From: CBDUXP01 sp965371225 [NCBI: uncultured bacterium]
GTDB taxonomy: Bacteria > Abyssobacteria > SURF-5 > CBDUXP01
Direction of reading: 5' to 3'
Assembly: GCA_965371225.1 (NCBI GenBank)
Contig: CBDUXP010000114.1
Coordinates: forward strand, 1 to 6,241
DNA: 6,241 nt
Both the position numbers and the translations under genes were made by a program. The stretch's first letter is position 1, and each line of letters begins with the position of its first letter. This document shows positions 1-6,241 of this stretch, piece by piece. The notes under the pieces are model-generated. The model was not told the origin of the DNA, made no database searches, and saw nothing but the letters and a program-made list of their open reading frames with translations.

Positions 1-10
1 CTTGCCATTC

Positions 11-36
11 GGGCGGACACGCAGGTCCGCCCCTAC
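11..36. repeat. Palindromic repeat unit 1 (8-bp stem, 6-base loop, CTAC tail)
   Basis: GGGCGGAC (11-18) is perfectly complementary to GTCCGCCC (25-32) around the six-base loop ACGCAG, and CTAC follows at 33-36. The right end, GCCCCTAC, is shared with the hairpin at 133-164, so the two look like members of one dispersed palindromic family. Similar short GC-rich intergenic palindromes (REP-like or MITE-like) are common in several GC-rich phyla. The class assignment is an inference. Confidence 0.6.
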
Positions 37-58
37 GCAGGAACATTTGCACGTGGAG

Positions 59-80
59 GGCACGGCTGCCACGCCGTGCC
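59..80. repeat. Palindromic repeat unit 2 (8-bp stem, 6-base loop)
   Basis: GGCACGGC (59-66) pairs perfectly with GCCGTGCC (73-80) around the six-base loop TGCCAC. Stem and loop lengths are the same as in the unit at 11-32, although the stem sequence differs. It lacks the CTAC tail and runs into GC-rich sequence. Equal geometry with a different sequence suggests compensatory change within a structured repeat family, but this rests on two units only. Confidence 0.5.
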
Positions 81-107
81 GCGCGGGCCGGTCTGCGGAA
101 AGCCGGT

Positions 108-120
108 TGCGCGAAGCGCA
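108..120. repeat. Short hairpin TGCGC-GAA-GCGCA
   Basis: TGCGC (108-112) and GCGCA (116-120) form a perfect five-base stem closed by a GAA loop. Alone it could be chance in GC-rich DNA. It is listed because it lies between two longer palindromes in a tightly packed cluster. Confidence 0.3.
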
Positions 121-132
121 GAGGCGGATGCC

Positions 133-164
133 GGGCCGGGCGGTTCCAAGAACCCGGCCCCTAC
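133..164. repeat. Palindromic repeat unit 3 (8-bp stem, GCCCCTAC end)
   Basis: GGGCCGGG (133-140) pairs perfectly with CCCGGCCC (153-160). An inner TT/AA pair (144-145 with 151-152) can extend the stem past a three-base bulge. CTAC follows at 161-164, giving the same GCCCCTAC right end as the unit at 11-36. Another small hairpin, CGCGGG-TG-CCCGCG, follows at 165-178. The shared end makes membership in a common repeat family likely. Confidence 0.5.
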
Positions 165-254
165 CGCGGGTGCCCGCGCCGGGATGTCGCGCCGCCGGGC
201 CCAGGGCTTAAACTGCCGCTAGGGGCGGAGTTCCGGCATCGCGCAGGGTCGCCG

Positions 255-283
255 TTGAGGGGGGCCGCGGACGCTGCTAGAAT
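255..283 (+). promoter_or_regulatory. Sigma70-like promoter of the gcv operon, extended -10
   Basis: TTGAGG (255-260) matches the -35 consensus in its first four bases. After a 17-base spacer, TAGAAT (278-283) matches the -10 consensus in five of six positions. It is preceded by TGC (275-277), an extended -10 element. Transcription would start near 290, giving a leader of about 44 bases before the gcvPA ATG. This is the best promoter candidate in the upstream region. No operator or riboswitch is recognised around it. Confidence 0.6.
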
Positions 284-318
284 CCTTAGCCCCACACGTC
301 GCCGCCGCCCGTCGACAC

Positions 319-322
319 GAGG
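319..322 (+). promoter_or_regulatory. Weak ribosome binding site of gcvPA
   Basis: GAGG lies 11 bases before the ATG at 334, which is rather far for a Shine-Dalgarno. It is nevertheless the only purine-rich match near that start. The start is supported mainly by the N-terminal protein sequence (MAYIPNT), which looks like the normal beginning of the GcvPA family. Confidence 0.4.
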
Positions 323-333
323 TTCCCGGATCT

Positions 334-1704
334 ATGGCGTATATTCCGAACACTGACGCGGATCGCGAGGCGATGCTCGCCACGCTGGGCCTGAAGACGG
401 TGGATGCCCTGTTCGCGGACATCCCGAAATCCGCGCGGCCGGTCCGGCCCCCCGAGGTGCCCGGTCCGCTCGCGGAATGGCAGATCGCCCAGGTCATGGG
501 CGCGCAGGCCGGCCGCAACCGCAACACGCAGGAGGCCGCGTCCTTTCTCGGCGCGGGGATCTACGACCACCATATCCCCACCGCGGTGTGGGACCTGGTG
601 AATCGCGGCGAGTTCAAAACGGCGTACACGCCCTACCAGCCGGAGGTCAGCCAGGGCTTCCTCCAGACCATTTACGAGTACCAGTCCATGATCTGCGCGC
701 TCACCGAGATGGACATCTCGAACGCGTCGCTGTACGACGGGGCGGGCGCCGCGGTGGAAGCCATGCTCATGGCCGTAAAGCGCACGAAGCGGCCGGTCGT
801 CGCGGCGTCCGAAGCGCTGCACCCGGACACCCGCGCGGTGCTCGAAACCTATGCGCGCATGCTGGACCTCCGCTACGTGCTCGTGCCGCACGCAAAGGGC
901 ATCACCGACCTTAACGCGGTGGACGAGCTGGTGACGGAGGACGTGGCGTGCCTCATCACGCAGGCGCCGAACTTCTTCGGCATCATCGAGGGGACGGACG
1001 GGGAACTAGGCGAGCGCGCGCACCGGCACGGCGCCAAGTGGATCGTAAGCTGCGACCCGGTGAGCCTCGGCCTCCTGCACGGGCCGGGGGCTTACGGTGC
1101 GGACATCGCCGTGGGGGAGGGGCAGGGGCTCGGCATCCCCCAGGCCCTGGGTGGCGCCACGTTCGGCTTCCTCGCCATCAAGAACGAAGGGCTCGCGCGG
1201 CGCGAGCGCATGCTGAAGTTTATGCCGGGGCGCCTGTGCGGCTCGACGCTCGACGCGCGGGGGGAAGAGGCGTACGCGCTTTCCCTGACTACGCGCGAGC
1301 AGCACGTCAAGCGCGAGCGGGCCACGTCGAACATCTGCACCAACCAGGCGCTGCTCGCGCTCGCGGCGACCGTGCACCTGAGTCTGCTCGGCAGCGCCGG
1401 CCTGCGCGAGGTGGCGCACCAGTGCCTGCAGAAGGCGCACTACGCCGCGAAGAAACTCACGCGCACGCCGGGGGTCAACCTCGCGTTTCCGAAACAACCG
1501 TTCTTCAAGGAATTTGCGCTCAAACTGCCCGGCGACCCGGCCAAGCTGAATCGCGCGCTCAAGAAGGTGAACATCATCGGCGGGTATCCGCTGGAGGCTC
1601 ACTACCCGGCGCTGGAGAACGGGGTCCTGCTCGCGGTCACGGAGAAGCGGAGTCGCACCGAGATTGACGCGCTGGCGGCGGAGGTGGCGACGTGGAGCCG
1701 CTAA
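334..1704 (+). CDS. gcvPA: Glycine dehydrogenase (decarboxylating) subunit 1, GcvPA
   Basis: This is the alpha subunit of the two-subunit P-protein of the glycine cleavage system, a cytosolic enzyme that with GcvPB decarboxylates glycine and passes the aminomethyl group to the lipoyl arm of GcvH. The 456-residue length is normal for the family (about 440-460). Family signatures read in order: YIPNTDADREAML at the N-terminus, FLGAGIYDHHIP, TAYTPYQPEVSQGFLQ, the ASLYDGA segment, and late TTREQHVKRERATSNICTNQ. The PLP lysine is carried by the beta subunit, so its absence here is expected. The N-terminus aligns in character with the family from the ATG at 334. The gene is first in the operon, behind a sigma70-like promoter, and its last 13 bases overlap the next gene, implying coupled translation at matched levels. 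No truncation or frameshift is seen. Confidence 0.97.
   Translation: MAYIPNTDADREAMLATLGLKTVDALFADIPKSARPVRPPEVPGPLAEWQIAQVMGAQAGRNRNTQEAASFLGAGIYDHHIPTAVWDLVNRGEFKTAYTPYQPEVSQGFLQTIYEYQSMICALTEMDISNASLYDGAGAAVEAMLMAVKRTKRPVVAASEALHPDTRAVLETYARMLDLRYVLVPHAKGITDLNAVDELVTEDVACLITQAPNFFGIIEGTDGELGERAHRHGAKWIVSCDPVSLGLLHGPGAYGADIAVGEGQGLGIPQALGGATFGFLAIKNEGLARRERMLKFMPGRLCGSTLDARGEEAYALSLTTREQHVKRERATSNICTNQALLALAATVHLSLLGSAGLREVAHQCLQKAHYAAKKLTRTPGVNLAFPKQPFFKEFALKLPGDPAKLNRALKKVNIIGGYPLEAHYPALENGVLLAVTEKRSRTEIDALAAEVATWSR
1680..1687 (+). promoter_or_regulatory. Strong Shine-Dalgarno that fixes the GTG start of gcvPB-gcvT
   Basis: GGAGGTGG at 1680-1687 lies inside the end of gcvPA. The GGAGGT core ends six bases before the GTG at 1692, which is ideal spacing. 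This decides the start: the first in-frame ATG (1743) would remove LIFEGGAPGRTAVY, which is characteristic of GcvPB N-termini. Confidence 0.75.
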
Positions 1705-4220
1705 TCTTCGAGGGGGGCGCGCCCGGCCGCACCGCCGTCTACATGCCGGAGCTGGACGTTCCCGAGCAGGCGCTGGACGCGCTGCTCCCCGAGGGCGCGG
1801 TGCGCAGCACCTTGCTGTTGCCCCAGCGCGGGGAACTGGAGGTGGTGCGCCACTTCACCCGCCTCGCGCAGCGGAACATGGGCATCGACACCGCGTTCTA
1901 TCCGCTCGGGTCGTGCACCATGAAGTACAACCCGAAGATCAACGACGCGATGGCGTTCCTGGCCGGGTACGCCCACGTTCACCCATACCAGGCCCCAGCC
2001 GAAATTCAAGGCGCTCTCGAACTCCTGTGGCAACTGGACCAGTGGCTGTGCGACATCACGGGGTTCGCCGCCGCCTCATTCCAGCCGGCCGCGGGGGCGC
2101 ACGGCGAACTCACGTCGCTCATGATGTTCAAGGCGTACTTCGCGGCGCAGGGGGATTCCGGACGCACCACGATCCTCGTTCCGGACTCGGCGCACGGCAC
2201 GAACCCGGCGAGCGCTGCCATGTGCGGGTTCACGGTGCAGGAGATTCCGTCCACCAGCGAGGGGGAGGTGGACCTGGCCGCGATCCGGGCAGCCGCCGGC
2301 CCACACGTGGCAGGCATCATGCTCACCGTCCCGAACACGGCCGGCCTCTTCGAACGGGATATCGAAGCGGTCATCGGCGCCATTCGCGACTGCGGCGGGC
2401 TCCTCTATTGCGACGGCGCGAACCTCAACGCCATGGTGGGCCGCTGCCGGCCCGGCGAGCTGGGCTTCGACGCCATGCACATCAATCTGCACAAGACCTT
2501 CTCCACGCCGCACGGCGGTGGCGGGCCGGGGGGCGGACCCATCGTAGTGTCGGAACGGATCGCGCCATACCTACCGGTCCCGCTCGTCAAGGAACACAAC
2601 GGTACGTACGCCTGGGACTGGGCGCGTCCGGCCAGCATCGGGAAAGTCCGCGGGTTTTATGGCGCGTTCGCCGTGGCAGTGCGTGCCGTGGCGTACATTC
2701 TCGCGCAAGGGCCGGCGGGGCTCCGGGCGATCGCGGACAACGCGGTGCTGAACGCGAACTATGTCCGGGAACGGCTCAAGGGCCTGTTCGACCAGCCGTA
2801 CGACCGGACGTGCATGCACGAATTCGTCATGGCGCCCACGGCCGCCATGAAAGCGGCCGGCACGACGACGATGGATATCGCCAAGCGGCTGCTCGATTTC
2901 GGTATGCACGCCCCCACGATCTATTTCCCCCTGATCGTGGATCAGGCGATCATGTTCGAACCGACCGAGACGGAGTCCAAAGAAGCGCTGGACGGTTTCG
3001 TGGACGCGATGACGCAGATCGCGCAGGAGGCCGTCGACGCCCCTGACGTCCTTCACCACGCGCCCACGCTCACGCCCGTGACTCGCGTGGACCTGAATCT
3101 GGCCAACGGCTGGCGGGATTACAACTACGCCACGCGGGTGGTGCGCCGGCCGCCGCTCCTGTCGATGCACATGCGGGCCGGCGCCACCATGTTCAACTTC
3201 GCGAACTGGCACATGCCGCTCTTCTACACGAGCGTGGAAGAGGAGCACCGCGCAGTGCGGGAGGCCGTCGGCCTTTTCGACATCTCCCACATGGGCGAGG
3301 TGTATTTCGAGGGTCCGCAAGCCGCGGCCACGCTGCAGCGGCTCCTCGCAAACGATGTCACGCGGCTCGAGCCGGGGCGGGCGCAGTACACCATGCTCCT
3401 CAACGAAGCCGGCCATGTGGTCGATGATTGCTACCTCTATATGCTCGCGCCCGACCGGTACCTGCTCGTGATCAACGCGGCCACGCGCGAAAAGGACGTG
3501 GCGTGGATGCAACAGCACCTCACGGGCAACAGCGTCTCCATGACCGAACGCAGTCTCGAGACCGGCCTGTTCTCGCTGCAAGGCCCGAAGGCCCTGGCGC
3601 TCGCCCGCCGACTCGTCGACGGGCCCTTTCCAGAGAAGAAGAACCGTATCGTCGAAACCACGCTAGGCCGGATCCCCTGCCTCGTGTCGCAATCCGGCTA
3701 CACGGGGGAGGACGGGGTGGAGATCTATCACGGCGTGCGCGATTCGGTCCGCCTGTGGGACGCGGTGATGGCGGCGGGCCAGGCGGACGGCATCCGGCCC
3801 ATCGGGCTCGGAGCGCGGAACACCCTCCGCGCCGAGATGGCGTACTGCCTCTACGGCAGCGAACTGAACGAGGAGACCACCCCGCTGGAGGCGAACCTGG
3901 GCTGGGTGGTGAAGTTGGACACCGATTTCATCGGGGCGGAACGCTTGCGCGAACAGCAGGCCGCCGGCATCACGCGCACGCGCGTGGGGTTCCGCATCCC
4001 GGCGGGCGCCGTTCCGCGCCAGCACGATCCGGTCGCGATCAACGGCGAGAGCATTGGCGAGGTCACCTCGGCGGTGCACGGCGTGTCGGTGGACGCGGTG
4101 CTCGGCATGGCCTACGTGCCCGTCGAATGGAGCGAACCGGGCACCAAGATTATGGTCGGCTCGGGCGCGAAACGGGCGGAGGCCACCATCGTCAGCCTGC
4201 CGTTTTACCACCGGGGATGA
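1692..4220 (+). CDS. Fused glycine dehydrogenase subunit 2 and aminomethyltransferase (GcvPB-GcvT)
   Basis: One unbroken 842-residue frame carries two complete glycine cleavage enzymes. Residues about 1-480 are GcvPB, the PLP-binding beta subunit of P-protein: PLIFEGGAPGR, PELDVPEQ, YPLGSCTMKYNPKIN, DSAHGTNPASAA, CDGANLNAMVG, then NLHKTFSTPHGGGGPG, where K268 is the expected Schiff-base lysine. Residues about 485-842 are GcvT, which releases ammonia and forms 5,10-methylene-tetrahydrofolate: FDISHMGEV, AGHVVDDCYLY (D578/D579, the conserved catalytic-region aspartate), GYTGEDGVEIY (669-679), GLGARNTLR (705-713) and TTPLEANLGW. Both parts have near-normal length, so this is a head-to-tail fusion and not a fragment. 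The junction (about 465-486) contains no stop or shift. N710 replaces the aspartate usual in GLGARD. The start is GTG with a strong Shine-Dalgarno. A sequencing loss of a stop is possible but unlikely. No canonical terminator follows. Confidence 0.95.
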   Translation: MEPLIFEGGAPGRTAVYMPELDVPEQALDALLPEGAVRSTLLLPQRGELEVVRHFTRLAQRNMGIDTAFYPLGSCTMKYNPKINDAMAFLAGYAHVHPYQAPAEIQGALELLWQLDQWLCDITGFAAASFQPAAGAHGELTSLMMFKAYFAAQGDSGRTTILVPDSAHGTNPASAAMCGFTVQEIPSTSEGEVDLAAIRAAAGPHVAGIMLTVPNTAGLFERDIEAVIGAIRDCGGLLYCDGANLNAMVGRCRPGELGFDAMHINLHKTFSTPHGGGGPGGGPIVVSERIAPYLPVPLVKEHNGTYAWDWARPASIGKVRGFYGAFAVAVRAVAYILAQGPAGLRAIADNAVLNANYVRERLKGLFDQPYDRTCMHEFVMAPTAAMKAAGTTTMDIAKRLLDFGMHAPTIYFPLIVDQAIMFEPTETESKEALDGFVDAMTQIAQEAVDAPDVLHHAPTLTPVTRVDLNLANGWRDYNYATRVVRRPPLLSMHMRAGATMFNFANWHMPLFYTSVEEEHRAVREAVGLFDISHMGEVYFEGPQAAATLQRLLANDVTRLEPGRAQYTMLLNEAGHVVDDCYLYMLAPDRYLLVINAATREKDVAWMQQHLTGNSVSMTERSLETGLFSLQGPKALALARRLVDGPFPEKKNRIVETTLGRIPCLVSQSGYTGEDGVEIYHGVRDSVRLWDAVMAAGQADGIRPIGLGARNTLRAEMAYCLYGSELNEETTPLEANLGWVVKLDTDFIGAERLREQQAAGITRTRVGFRIPAGAVPRQHDPVAINGESIGEVTSAVHGVSVDAVLGMAYVPVEWSEPGTKIMVGSGAKRAEATIVSLPFYHRG

Positions 4221-4276
4221 TGCGTGCCGGCGTCGGCCGGGGGACGGGCCCATCCCCATCGCGGCCGCCGCATTCC

Positions 4277-4305
4277 TTGACGTGCTGCGGCGTGCACGCT
4301 AGCGT
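4277..4305 (+). promoter_or_regulatory. Putative promoter of the FHA-HEAT/HIT gene pair
   Basis: TTGACG (4277-4282) matches the -35 consensus in five of six bases. A 17-base spacer leads to TAGCGT (4300-4305), a weak -10 with T, A and final T conserved. The spacing and the TAGNNT pattern equal those of the gcv promoter at 255-283, which raises the credibility. A transcript would begin near 4312, about 30 bases before the ATG at 4344. AGGAG at 4312-4316 is 27 bases from that ATG, too distant to be a normal ribosome binding site. Confidence 0.4.
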
Positions 4306-4307
4306 GC
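4294..4307. promoter_or_regulatory. Perfect 14-bp palindrome, candidate operator
   Basis: GCACGCTAGCGTGC reads the same on both strands with no spacer. It spans the predicted -10 (4300-4305) of the FHA-HEAT promoter, where a dimeric repressor site would block polymerase. No regulator gene is visible nearby. Chance occurrence in GC-rich DNA or a simple hairpin remain alternatives. Confidence 0.35.
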
Positions 4308-4343
4308 TATCAGGAGCCAGCCCGCACCGCCACGCCGGGCCCC

Positions 4344-5573
4344 ATGCAACTCATCGTTAAGGAAAAGGGCCACGCCGCCCGCACCGTCCACTTGTCGCGC
4401 GGGGACATGGTCATCGGGCGCTCCCGGCAGGCCGACATCCGCTTGGAGAATTTCTACGCGTCCGGCAAACACTGCATGCTCCAGTATGACGGGACTACGC
4501 TGAAGCTGCACGACCTGAGCACGACGAACGGCACGTTCTACAACGGCCAGAAGATTGACGAAACGCTGGTTCGGGAAGGGGACCGGATCCTCGTGGGAAC
4601 GGCGCTGATCCTGGTCACCGGTGACGATGCCGGGCCGAACCTCCGCCAGCTCGCGGCGCAGTACGACGAAGGGGACGCGCTCGCGCGGGAACAGGTGGTC
4701 GGCATGCTCGGGGAACTGGCGGATCCGTCCGCCGTGGACCTGCTCCGGCAGGCCCTGCAGGACGAGAGCGCCCCCGTCCGCGAAACGGCGGCGGCCGCGT
4801 TGGGCAGCATCGGCGCGCCGGGAGCCGGCGCGGAGTTAGCCGCTTGCCTCGGGGACGACGAACCCGGCGTCCGCCAGCGGGCTACGTGGGCGCTCATCCG
4901 GACGGCGGATACTGCGGCGGTCCCACCGCTGATCGACACGGTGCTGGAAGGGTCCGACGACGCACGAGTAGCCGCGATCAACGTCCTGGGTATGCTGCGC
5001 GTGCAACAAAGCAGCTCTGCGATGATCCGTGCGCTCACCGCGGACACCCACCGAGTCCGCGAGGCCGCCGTCAAGGCGCTGGGAGCGCTGGGCGATGTCG
5101 GAGCCCTGCCGCACCTGGTCGAGGCGCTGGCGAAGCCCGACCGGTTTCCAATGCTCTGGGTGGTGGAAGCGTTGGGTGCTTTGCGTGACCTGGGCGCGTT
5201 GCCGCACCTGGTCGAGCAGTTGGATTATCCGGTGGTGGAGGTGCGCGAGGCGGCCGCCCACGCACTCGGGCAGGTCTGGTCGCGGCAGAGCATCACGCAT
5301 CTCATCGGCGCGCTTCAGGACCCGAGCGCCAGCGTCCGGCGCAGCGCCGCGGCCAGCCTGGAACGCATCCGGCGATCCCTGGACCCCGACCCGACCACCG
5401 CGAGCGCGAATGACTCGACCGGCGGCACGCTCTTGCTGGGCGACATCGGGGAGAGCCTGGCGGCCCTCGCGGATGGGACCGGGCCGGTAACCATTCAGCT
5501 GGACATCGCGTACTGGCAGCGCTGGTGGGCGGAAGTCGGCCCGCGGCTGCCCGCGGGACCGGCGGAGGGGTAG
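4344..5573 (+). CDS. FHA domain and HEAT-repeat protein
   Basis: A 409-residue cytosolic protein without signal peptide or membrane segment. Residues about 1-95 form an FHA (forkhead-associated) phosphothreonine-binding domain with all hallmark positions: G25-R26, S40-x-x-H43, and T61-N62-G63-T64, so phosphopeptide binding is probably intact. Residues 114-331 form seven HEAT-like repeats (PBS-lyase HEAT type), nearly all exactly 31 residues long, with a partial eighth repeat at 332-344; they would stack into a curved helical scaffold. A Ser/Thr/Asn-rich stretch at 351-362 links to a C-terminal segment (363-409) with a YWQRWW cluster, which I do not recognise. The architecture suggests an adaptor recognising Ser/Thr-phosphorylated partners; the partner is unknown and no kinase gene is in the window. 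The ATG at 4344 opens directly into the FHA first strand and no in-frame upstream start exists. The gene ends exactly where the HIT gene begins. Confidence 0.9.
   Translation: MQLIVKEKGHAARTVHLSRGDMVIGRSRQADIRLENFYASGKHCMLQYDGTTLKLHDLSTTNGTFYNGQKIDETLVREGDRILVGTALILVTGDDAGPNLRQLAAQYDEGDALAREQVVGMLGELADPSAVDLLRQALQDESAPVRETAAAALGSIGAPGAGAELAACLGDDEPGVRQRATWALIRTADTAAVPPLIDTVLEGSDDARVAAINVLGMLRVQQSSSAMIRALTADTHRVREAAVKALGALGDVGALPHLVEALAKPDRFPMLWVVEALGALRDLGALPHLVEQLDYPVVEVREAAAHALGQVWSRQSITHLIGALQDPSASVRRSAAASLERIRRSLDPDPTTASANDSTGGTLLLGDIGESLAALADGTGPVTIQLDIAYWQRWWAEVGPRLPAGPAEG
4683..5336 (+). repeat. Seven in-frame HEAT repeats, about 93-base period
   Basis: Repeats start at residues 114, 146, 177, 208, 239, 270 and 301; the first is 32 residues and the rest are 31. 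Most begin with Arg and share an A-x-x-A-L-G-x-L core followed by a second helix ending in L-x-x-x-L. Repeats five and six are the most alike: they share ALPHLVE and a 17-base identical DNA stretch at 5107-5123 and 5200-5216, exactly 93 bases apart, consistent with internal duplication. Confidence 0.75.
5564..5570 (+). promoter_or_regulatory. Shine-Dalgarno of the HIT gene within the FHA-HEAT stop region
   Basis: GGAGGGG ends three bases before the ATG at 5574, and its GGAGG core leaves a five-base spacing. The intervening three bases are the TAG stop of the upstream gene, so terminating ribosomes sit on this site, which favours translational coupling. It also supports the ATG at 5574 as the start. 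Confidence 0.65.
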
Positions 5574-6095
5574 ATGCCCGGGAAGTACGACGGGCCGGCA
5601 CCGTGGGCGCACCTGGCGACTCCGGACAAGCTGGCGTACGCGCGGGGCCGCCGTCCGGAGGTGGAGTGTCTCCTCTGCGCGGTGTTGGCGCGCGACCCGG
5701 ACGTGGAACGCCTGGAAATCTTTCGGACCAAACGCTTCGCGGTATCCGCTAACTTGTACCCGTACAATCCGGGGCACCTGCTCTTGTTTCCCCTGCGCCA
5801 CATCGTTGACATCCGGGACCTGCAGCGCGCGGAGCAGCGGGAGCTGGCGGACCTGCAGGCGTGCACGCTGGGCGTGCTGGAGGCGATGTACCAGCCCACG
5901 GGATTCAACGTGGGGTTCAATCTGGGCCGGAGCGCGGGCGCGAGCGTCCGCCACCTCCACCTGCACGTGGTACCGCGCTACGATACGGAGATGGGTTTTC
6001 TCGAGATGCTGTCGCAGACGCGGACCGTAGTCGAAGACCCCCGCAGGACGGTCCGGCGTCTGCGCGCGCGTTTCCGGCGTAGTTGGCGCGACTAG
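5574..6095 (+). CDS. HIT-family protein, Ap4A phosphorylase/hydrolase-like
   Basis: A 173-residue cytosolic protein of the histidine-triad superfamily, whose members hydrolyse or phosphorolyse dinucleoside polyphosphates or other nucleotide adducts. The triad is H127-x-H129-x-H131 within RHLHLHVVPRY; H129, the middle histidine, is the expected nucleophile. C32-x-x-C35 near the N-terminus resembles the zinc-binding pair of many HIT proteins. LYPYNPGHLLLFPLRHI (61-77) and GFNVGFNLGRSAGAS (110-124) are typical of the branch that includes mycobacterial Ap4A phosphorylase, so that activity is the best guess, but the substrate cannot be fixed from sequence. The C-terminal 20 residues are Arg-rich. 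The ATG directly follows the FHA-HEAT stop, with a Shine-Dalgarno in the upstream gene, so the two are probably co-translated. Its stop overlaps the convergent gene. Confidence 0.9.
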   Translation: MPGKYDGPAPWAHLATPDKLAYARGRRPEVECLLCAVLARDPDVERLEIFRTKRFAVSANLYPYNPGHLLLFPLRHIVDIRDLQRAEQRELADLQACTLGVLEAMYQPTGFNVGFNLGRSAGASVRHLHLHVVPRYDTEMGFLEMLSQTRTVVEDPRRTVRRLRARFRRSWRD

Positions 6096-6241
6096 GGCGC
6101 TGCCGCGGGCGGCTCCCGCGCCGGTTCCGCACGCGCGGCGCGCCGGCTGTCCAAGGACGCCCGAAGTTCCGGCACCACGATCCCGTCGAAGTCCGTAAAC
6201 GCCACGTCGGGCTGTGCGAGCGCGTACAACAGCGTCGGCAC
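6092..6241 (-). CDS. 3' end of an unrecognised convergent gene (partial)
   Basis: On the - strand an open frame enters from the right edge and runs 49 codons to a TAG stop at 6094-6092. The visible C-terminus reads VPTLLYALAQPDVAFTDFDG and continues with IVVPELRASLDS, then an Arg/Ala/Pro-rich tail ending PAAAP. About 86% of its codons end in G or C (42 of 49 counted), as expected of a real gene here, and the first 30 residues look protein-like with mixed hydrophobic and acidic residues. I do not recognise the family. The gene converges on the HIT gene, and the two stop codons share CTAG (6092-6095). No start is in the window. It could be a chance open frame, as it is short. Confidence 0.5.
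   Translation of the reverse strand: MPTLLYALAQPDVAFTDFDGIVVPELRASLDSRRAARAEPAREPPAAAP

Follow-up and report, generated by a model that had tools for sequence, protein, structure and literature searches.

The gcvPB-gcvT reading frame

We analysed a stretch of 6,241 nucleotides (hereafter the window; contig CBDUXP010000114.1, positions 1 to 6,241 of the forward strand) from an uncultured bacterium of the Abyssobacteria lineage, in which two consecutive enzymes of glycine cleavage that are ordinarily separate proteins, the beta subunit of glycine decarboxylase (GcvPB) and aminomethyltransferase (GcvT), share a single reading frame. Four genes lie on the + strand: gcvPA (334-1704), the gcvPB-gcvT gene (1692-4220), a gene at 4344-5573 whose product has FHA and HEAT repeat parts, and a HIT gene (5574-6095). 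The reading frame and its comparison with relatives indicate that the second of these is very probably a genuine gene fusion. Its features are as follows.

1692-4220, + strand: gcvPB-gcvT fusion gene, 842 amino acids, GTG start; a single open reading frame (ORF) with zero internal stops
1692-3104, + strand: GcvPB part, residues 1-471; NF003346 on residues 2-471, 678.7 bits (cut-off 441)
2493-2495, + strand: codon of K268 in NLHKTF; K in 14/14 ungapped alignment rows, with 16 rows gapped
3072-3143, + strand: junction, residues 461-484; a PB tail of normal length runs into a normal GcvT start without extra linker, stop or Shine-Dalgarno (SD) sequence
3162-3908, + strand: GcvT folate-binding domain, residues 491-739; PF01571, E = 2.2e-88
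3423-3425, + strand: codon of D578, which opens the conserved DD pair of GcvT; D578 and D579 in 21/21 ungapped rows
3708-3710, + strand: codon of E673 in GYTGEDG; E in 21/21 ungapped rows
3816-3818, + strand: codon of R709 in GLGAR; R in 21/21 ungapped rows
3975-4208, + strand: GcvT C-terminal barrel, residues 762-839; PF08669, E = 7e-19

The initial annotation had described this frame, at the coordinates listed, as full-length GcvPB followed by full-length GcvT with intact signature motifs in both, and each part of that description is borne out here. The stop-free run at the gene spans 850 codons, whereas in 200 sequences as long as the window, generated by a first-order Markov model, the longest such run has a maximum of 583 and a median of 327.5. 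Residues up to about 482 correspond to a complete GcvPB and those from about 483 to a complete aminomethyltransferase, with no added linker, and Pfam and NCBIfam models match nearly the whole length of each half. Four Pfam domains score above their gathering cut-offs (GDC-P at 46-388, GcvP2_C at 349-448, GCV_T at 491-739 and GCV_T_C at 762-839), and a match to Aminotran_5 falls just short of its own.

The first half is identified as GcvPB by the equivalog model NF003346, and its closest solved relative is subunit 2 of the Thermus P-protein (1wyt_B; residues 3-472, 486.7 bits). The partner subunit of GcvPB is encoded just upstream by a separate gcvPA. The GcvT half is matched by NF001567 on residues 484-841 (376.8 bits, cut-off 300) and by TIGR00528 (320.2 bits, cut-off 235.85), and a further GcvT model, NF010093, scores under its cut-off (272.3 vs 459). 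The closest solved relative of this half is Bacillus subtilis GcvT (1yx2; residues 483-841), and 1woo also matches. The GcvT half shows no translation start of its own as an independent protein would, since it follows PB in frame with no stop between them and no SD stands at the candidate starts. The checked motif positions are conserved in all ungapped alignment rows, among them K268 of the NLHK motif, which we take to be the pyridoxal phosphate (PLP) lysine, and Y566 and R713 of the GcvT half, likewise kept in 21/21 rows. Both halves of the fusion are likely to be active.

The start of the fusion gene overlaps the 3' end of gcvPA by 13 nucleotides, and we propose that the two genes form one overlapping transcription unit, with these upstream features:

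255-283, + strand: promoter-like site upstream of gcvPA, TTGAGG-17-TAGAAT with TG ahead of the second hexamer; 9/12 matches in a consensus scan
334-1704, + strand: gcvPA, glycine dehydrogenase subunit 1, 456 amino acids; ORF with matches to NF001696 (570.6 bits, cut-off 364) and PF02347
1674-1688, + strand: ribosome-binding site region of the fusion gene, GGAGGU, within the end of gcvPA; anti-SD duplex of -10.8 kcal/mol

Among 69 start-like codons lying internally in frame, 1.4% pair with the anti-SD as well as gcvPB does (-10.8). The promoter-like site is weak evidence, the scan having found one such site vs 0.4 (standard deviation 0.6) in shuffles. An Rfam scan of the window matched nothing, so that no glycine riboswitch reaches the gathering threshold. 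The non-coding DNA at window positions 1-60 holds short imperfect palindromes, e.g. around gggcggacacgcaggtccgccc, and a repeat search found no repeats of at least 12 bases in positions 1-333. Downstream, the gene at 4344-5573 (+ strand) encodes a protein with an N-terminal FHA domain and HEAT/PBS-lyase-like repeats, and the HIT-family gene at 5574-6095, which has a strong ribosome site (anti-SD -10.0), adjoins it; we know of no link between either gene and glycine cleavage. A reverse-strand frame open at 6092-6241, read by eye, has a stop overlapping that of the HIT gene and is probably the end of a convergent gene.

The junction and its occurrence among relatives

If the two halves were in truth separate genes, a stop or a frameshift would be expected near 3090-3170, as the initial annotation had recognised, and the fusion frame holds no stop in that stretch. 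GC content at third codon positions (GC3) in 20-codon windows starting at residues 461 to 501 is 0.85-1.0 and resembles that of the whole ORF (0.88), so there is no sign of a frame change at the junction. Past the junction, the other two frames have no stop between 3094 and 3425 (they stay open to 3425 and 3469, respectively), and at 3040-3209 the shifted frames contain zero ATG, GTG or TTG codons. A single hidden indel is therefore unlikely, because PB would run to 3425 or 3469, deep in GcvT, or T would have no start.

A stop lost by substitution can be judged from the length of PB tails. Three junction codons are one substitution from a stop (W474 TGG, Y477 TAC and Y479 TAC), and a stop at these positions would give a PB tail of 13, 16 or 18 residues past T461. 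We compared 144 PB ORFs from 147 loci, which gave 127 distinct tails; counted from the residue aligned with T461 up to the stop codon, these measure 19-41 residues, with a median of 23. Since all three of the hypothetical tails are shorter than 127/127 relatives, loss of a stop by a single substitution is unlikely, although this test, which draws on the tails of relatives, appears good rather than absolute. GcvT's own start sits at +23 from T461, where a normal PB tail ends. GcvT relatives open with a few residues followed by (K/R)-x-T-P-L, and the counterpart in the fusion is VVRRPPLL. Candidate in-frame gcvT starts at this point, GTG 3138, GTG 3141, ATG 3165 and ATG 3171, have anti-SD energies of +1.9, -1.1, -1.7 and +0.3 kcal/mol, respectively.

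To place the fusion among relatives we read 156 loci at sequence level, picked by similarity to the window and not at random; 80 loci were kept from a scan of genome contigs that gave at least 594 matches. None of the 151 PB ORFs of at least 200 bits in these loci also matches GcvT, although GcvT matches are present in 77 of the 156 loci. Genome searches were made around 15 anchor genomes (counter 1517, with some genomes counted more than once) and covered groups with an anchor, thus leaving out, e.g., Planctomycetota and Armatimonadota; one used the PB family only, and six were restricted to matches at E <= 1e-165 to 1e-178, a limit that would hide a more distant fusion; two of those six gave no match and carry no weight. 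No PB-T fusion is found among the matches listed in these searches, and the best identity over the PB part among the matches listed in the contig scan and genome searches is 58%. The PB frames longer than 700 amino acids, other than single-chain GcvP, that were read at sequence level (in eight genomes of the G001 phylum and in G013, G056, G166, G215 and G257) have no GcvT in frame; open frames of 883-896 in the G001 phylum were rejected as fusions, being PB and T read through one or two stops.

A scan of viral contigs with the fusion gave no match. The plasmid search matched 841 records, of which 17 cover 80% of the query in one place; among the best 20 of the 841, records covering both halves match in two pieces, with P and T genes separate wherever annotated (two records, H3 and H9, were read at gene level). 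Our literature search, as distinct from protein databases, found no description of a PB-T fusion. Two candidate papers were set aside: in the excerpt of PMC10327494 'fusion' is the name of an instrument, and in that of PMC4894688 it refers to a lacZ reporter.

In trees of the two halves, PB groups with L120, L123 and L127 (support 0.90) and T with L069 (0.96). The trees disagree on neighbours and neither names a lineage, and the terminal branches of the window are long (0.62 for PB and 0.92 for T).

Two kinds of longer PB frame were also observed. In L152 (1387-3999, - strand), GcvPA and GcvPB share one frame of at least 871 amino acids, with GDC-P at 1-402 and GcvP2_C at 736-837; it may be a fusion of PA and PB, or else a single-chain GcvP whose PB half is of the split type. 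In L078 (2525-5485), L091 (1462-3900), L153 (1761-4499) and L154 (1372-3549), 250-490 residues of open frame precede PB; this stretch matches no further Pfam family at E <= 1e-8 and may be open by chance.

Predicted structure and possible effects of the tether

An AlphaFold2 model of the fusion protein, built on 30 aligned sequences, has a mean pLDDT (predicted local distance difference test) of 81.7 and a pTM (predicted template modelling score) of 0.54, with the PB core and GcvT predicted confidently and junction residues 461-484 below a pLDDT of 50. The modelled GcvT half superposes on solved GcvT with a template modelling score (TM) of 0.95-0.96 by target length and a root-mean-square deviation (rmsd) of 1.2-1.7. 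In the model the protein thus looks like two independently folded domains joined by a flexible tether that is PB's own tail. Since the junction is predicted at low confidence, a flexible tether is more in keeping with the model than a fixed tunnel, and given this together with the pTM of 0.54, the model does not fix where the two catalytic sites lie relative to each other.

Several observations weigh against a genuine fusion or against this picture of it. With a stop at Y479 the PB tail would be 18 residues long, one below the shortest relative, and the FHA gene of the window also pairs weakly with the anti-SD (-2.5), so that a missing SD is not decisive. The fusion is a single sequence, and a second copy is absent among the 156 loci and the genome matches listed. 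In the model the PB half is uneven, with residues 1-23, 42-99 and 273-279 below a pLDDT of 50, and on 1wyt_B it reaches a TM of 0.74 by target length with an rmsd of 12.8; this is perhaps due to the absent partner subunit.

If the fusion is genuine, its PB half would assemble with GcvPA into an ordinary P-protein that would decarboxylate glycine and load the lipoyl arm of GcvH (H-protein), and the GcvT half, tethered through the C-terminal tail of PB, would unload the same GcvH onto tetrahydrofolate. It probably arose from abutting, in-frame PB and T genes, in that order, which would have lost the intervening stop codon and ribosome site; abutting PB or P and T genes elsewhere (see below) show how losing a stop could fuse them. 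The P-protein of Thermus is an alpha2-beta2 assembly, and because the GcvPB domain is complete here and a separate gcvPA is adjacent, an alpha2-beta2 P core with two GcvT domains is the natural expectation. P and T sites would then be equal in number (1:1), which holds if the genome has no second gcvT.

The available excerpts of PMC7733448 state that a cavity of the H-protein protects the aminomethyl group until T-protein meets it, that release of the aminomethyl arm from the H-protein limits the overall rate under the conditions of that study, and that the N-terminal region of T-protein is essential for its association with the H-protein. Since the H-protein already shields the arm, the case for channelling of a labile free intermediate is weaker, and a sealed channel is neither needed nor indicated. 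Shielding and rate-limiting release of the arm together make a tether that raises the chance of T-H encounter a plausible gain. By this reasoning, faster encounter of the loaded H-protein may plausibly be a milder benefit, and a kinetic gain from holding T beside freshly loaded GcvH is speculative. The tether must also leave the N-terminal end of GcvT free to work, because it is this end that is attached to PB in the fusion.

At its fullest, the interpretation would be that one alpha2-beta2 core carries P and T sites in covalently linked pairs, where tethered T captures loaded GcvH before it diffuses away, and that, counting the serine hydroxymethyltransferase (SHMT)-GcvT frames described below, GcvT has been wired more than once to a neighbour, the one before it in one lineage and the one after it in another. 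We put this forward tentatively and consider it rather unlikely in its entirety. If true, it would mean that bacteria have joined GcvT to a pathway neighbour more than once.

There is a substantial chance, if somewhat below even, that the fusion is instead neutral, i.e. that a lost stop was fixed by drift without any channelling or stoichiometric advantage. Such an origin would suit a PB tail that serves as linker with no sequence added, a junction that looks flexible in the model, the shielding of the arm by GcvH (in the excerpts of PMC7733448) and the lack of any other case among the 156 loci. However, both halves and the open junction have been kept on long branches (0.62 for PB, 0.92 for T), although these branches do not date the fusion itself, and two Chloroflexota-titled records hold an independent fusion of GcvT to a different neighbour enzyme.

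It is improbable that the fusion frame is real but yields two working proteins, either because translation also starts within the gene near 3138-3171 to give GcvT by itself or because the tether is cut after translation. The four in-frame start-like codons at the head of GcvT would allow the former, and the junction, predicted to be disordered, would be protease-accessible; however, of 69 other internal start-like codons, 71-99% pair more strongly with the anti-SD than these do.

Least likely, and very improbable on the sequence evidence, is a sequencing or assembly artefact in which the stop between two genes was lost through a miscalled base or indel: the single sequence with no close relative among the loci, the three codons that a single substitution would turn into stops and the abutting of PB and T as separate genes elsewhere would favour it, but restored stops would give tails under those of all 127 distinct relatives, an indel leaves T without a start in the shifted frames and PB without a stop until 3425 or 3469, a separate T would have no SD, and GC3 is undisturbed.

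It has long been asked whether the glycine cleavage enzymes form a channelling complex or act as a loose set. A natural P-T fusion is a ready-made construct for testing proximity effects and would be useful as a part for one-carbon and CO2-fixation engineering, a field in which P and T are otherwise supplied as two proteins (5 uM each in the assays described in the excerpts of PMC7227101 and PMC10185560).

Comparison with known arrangements

The window resembles the two-subunit GcvPA/GcvPB system with a separate GcvT (Thermus thermophilus 1WYT type) in that PA is also separate and adjacent and both halves match, but differs in that PB and T form one polypeptide. Membership among single-chain GcvP proteins (about 950 amino acids) was rejected, as PA is a separate ORF and TIGR00461 scores 364.6 of 859.2 bits.

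The nearest arrangement is the tandem of the G001 phylum (L001, L139, L140, L143-L146, L150 and L151), where gcvPB and gcvT are likewise adjacent with P before T. Unlike the fusion, these nine loci (of which L001 and L144 are the same place) have a TAA or TAG stop, a GGAGG-type site and then an ATG between PB and T. On actinobacterial plasmids gcvP and gcvT are also adjacent in this order, with an overlap of 4 nucleotides on one Rhodococcus plasmid, but gcvP there is the full single-chain form.

Dimethylglycine dehydrogenase/oxidase and sarcosine oxidase alpha (4pab, 5l46, 1pj5 and 2gag) likewise end in a GcvT-like folate domain, which follows a catalytic domain whose product is a one-carbon intermediate. 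The N-terminal part of those enzymes is a flavin oxidase, whereas in the window a PLP decarboxylase stands N-terminally and the intermediate is carried on GcvH. Membership in this group was rejected, only the P-protein, aminotransferase V and GcvT families being matched at E <= 0.001.

Unusually long GcvT frames in G014 and G010, whose source loci bear the titles Candidatus Thermoflexus japonica and Anaerolinea sp., drew attention to single ORFs that join SHMT to GcvT (L157:217-3390, - strand, 1057 amino acids, in G014; L158:196-3381, - strand, 1061 amino acids, in G010). In both genomes this ORF is the only GcvT-like match among the matches listed (E <= 1e-20). About 230 residues separate its Pfam domains, and in L155 and L156, which are partial ORFs, this middle part has no Pfam match at E <= 1e-8. 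A limited literature search found no paper on SHMT-GcvT, which does not argue that it is unreported. As in the window, GcvT forms the C-terminal part of the fusion and is joined to a pathway neighbour, but the partner is the enzyme of the step after GcvT, whereas in the window it is the enzyme before GcvT; these two records indicate that fusion of GcvT to a pathway neighbour recurs. The system encoded here is the known glycine cleavage system, and what appears to be new, as read from the gene, is PB and T in a single polypeptide.

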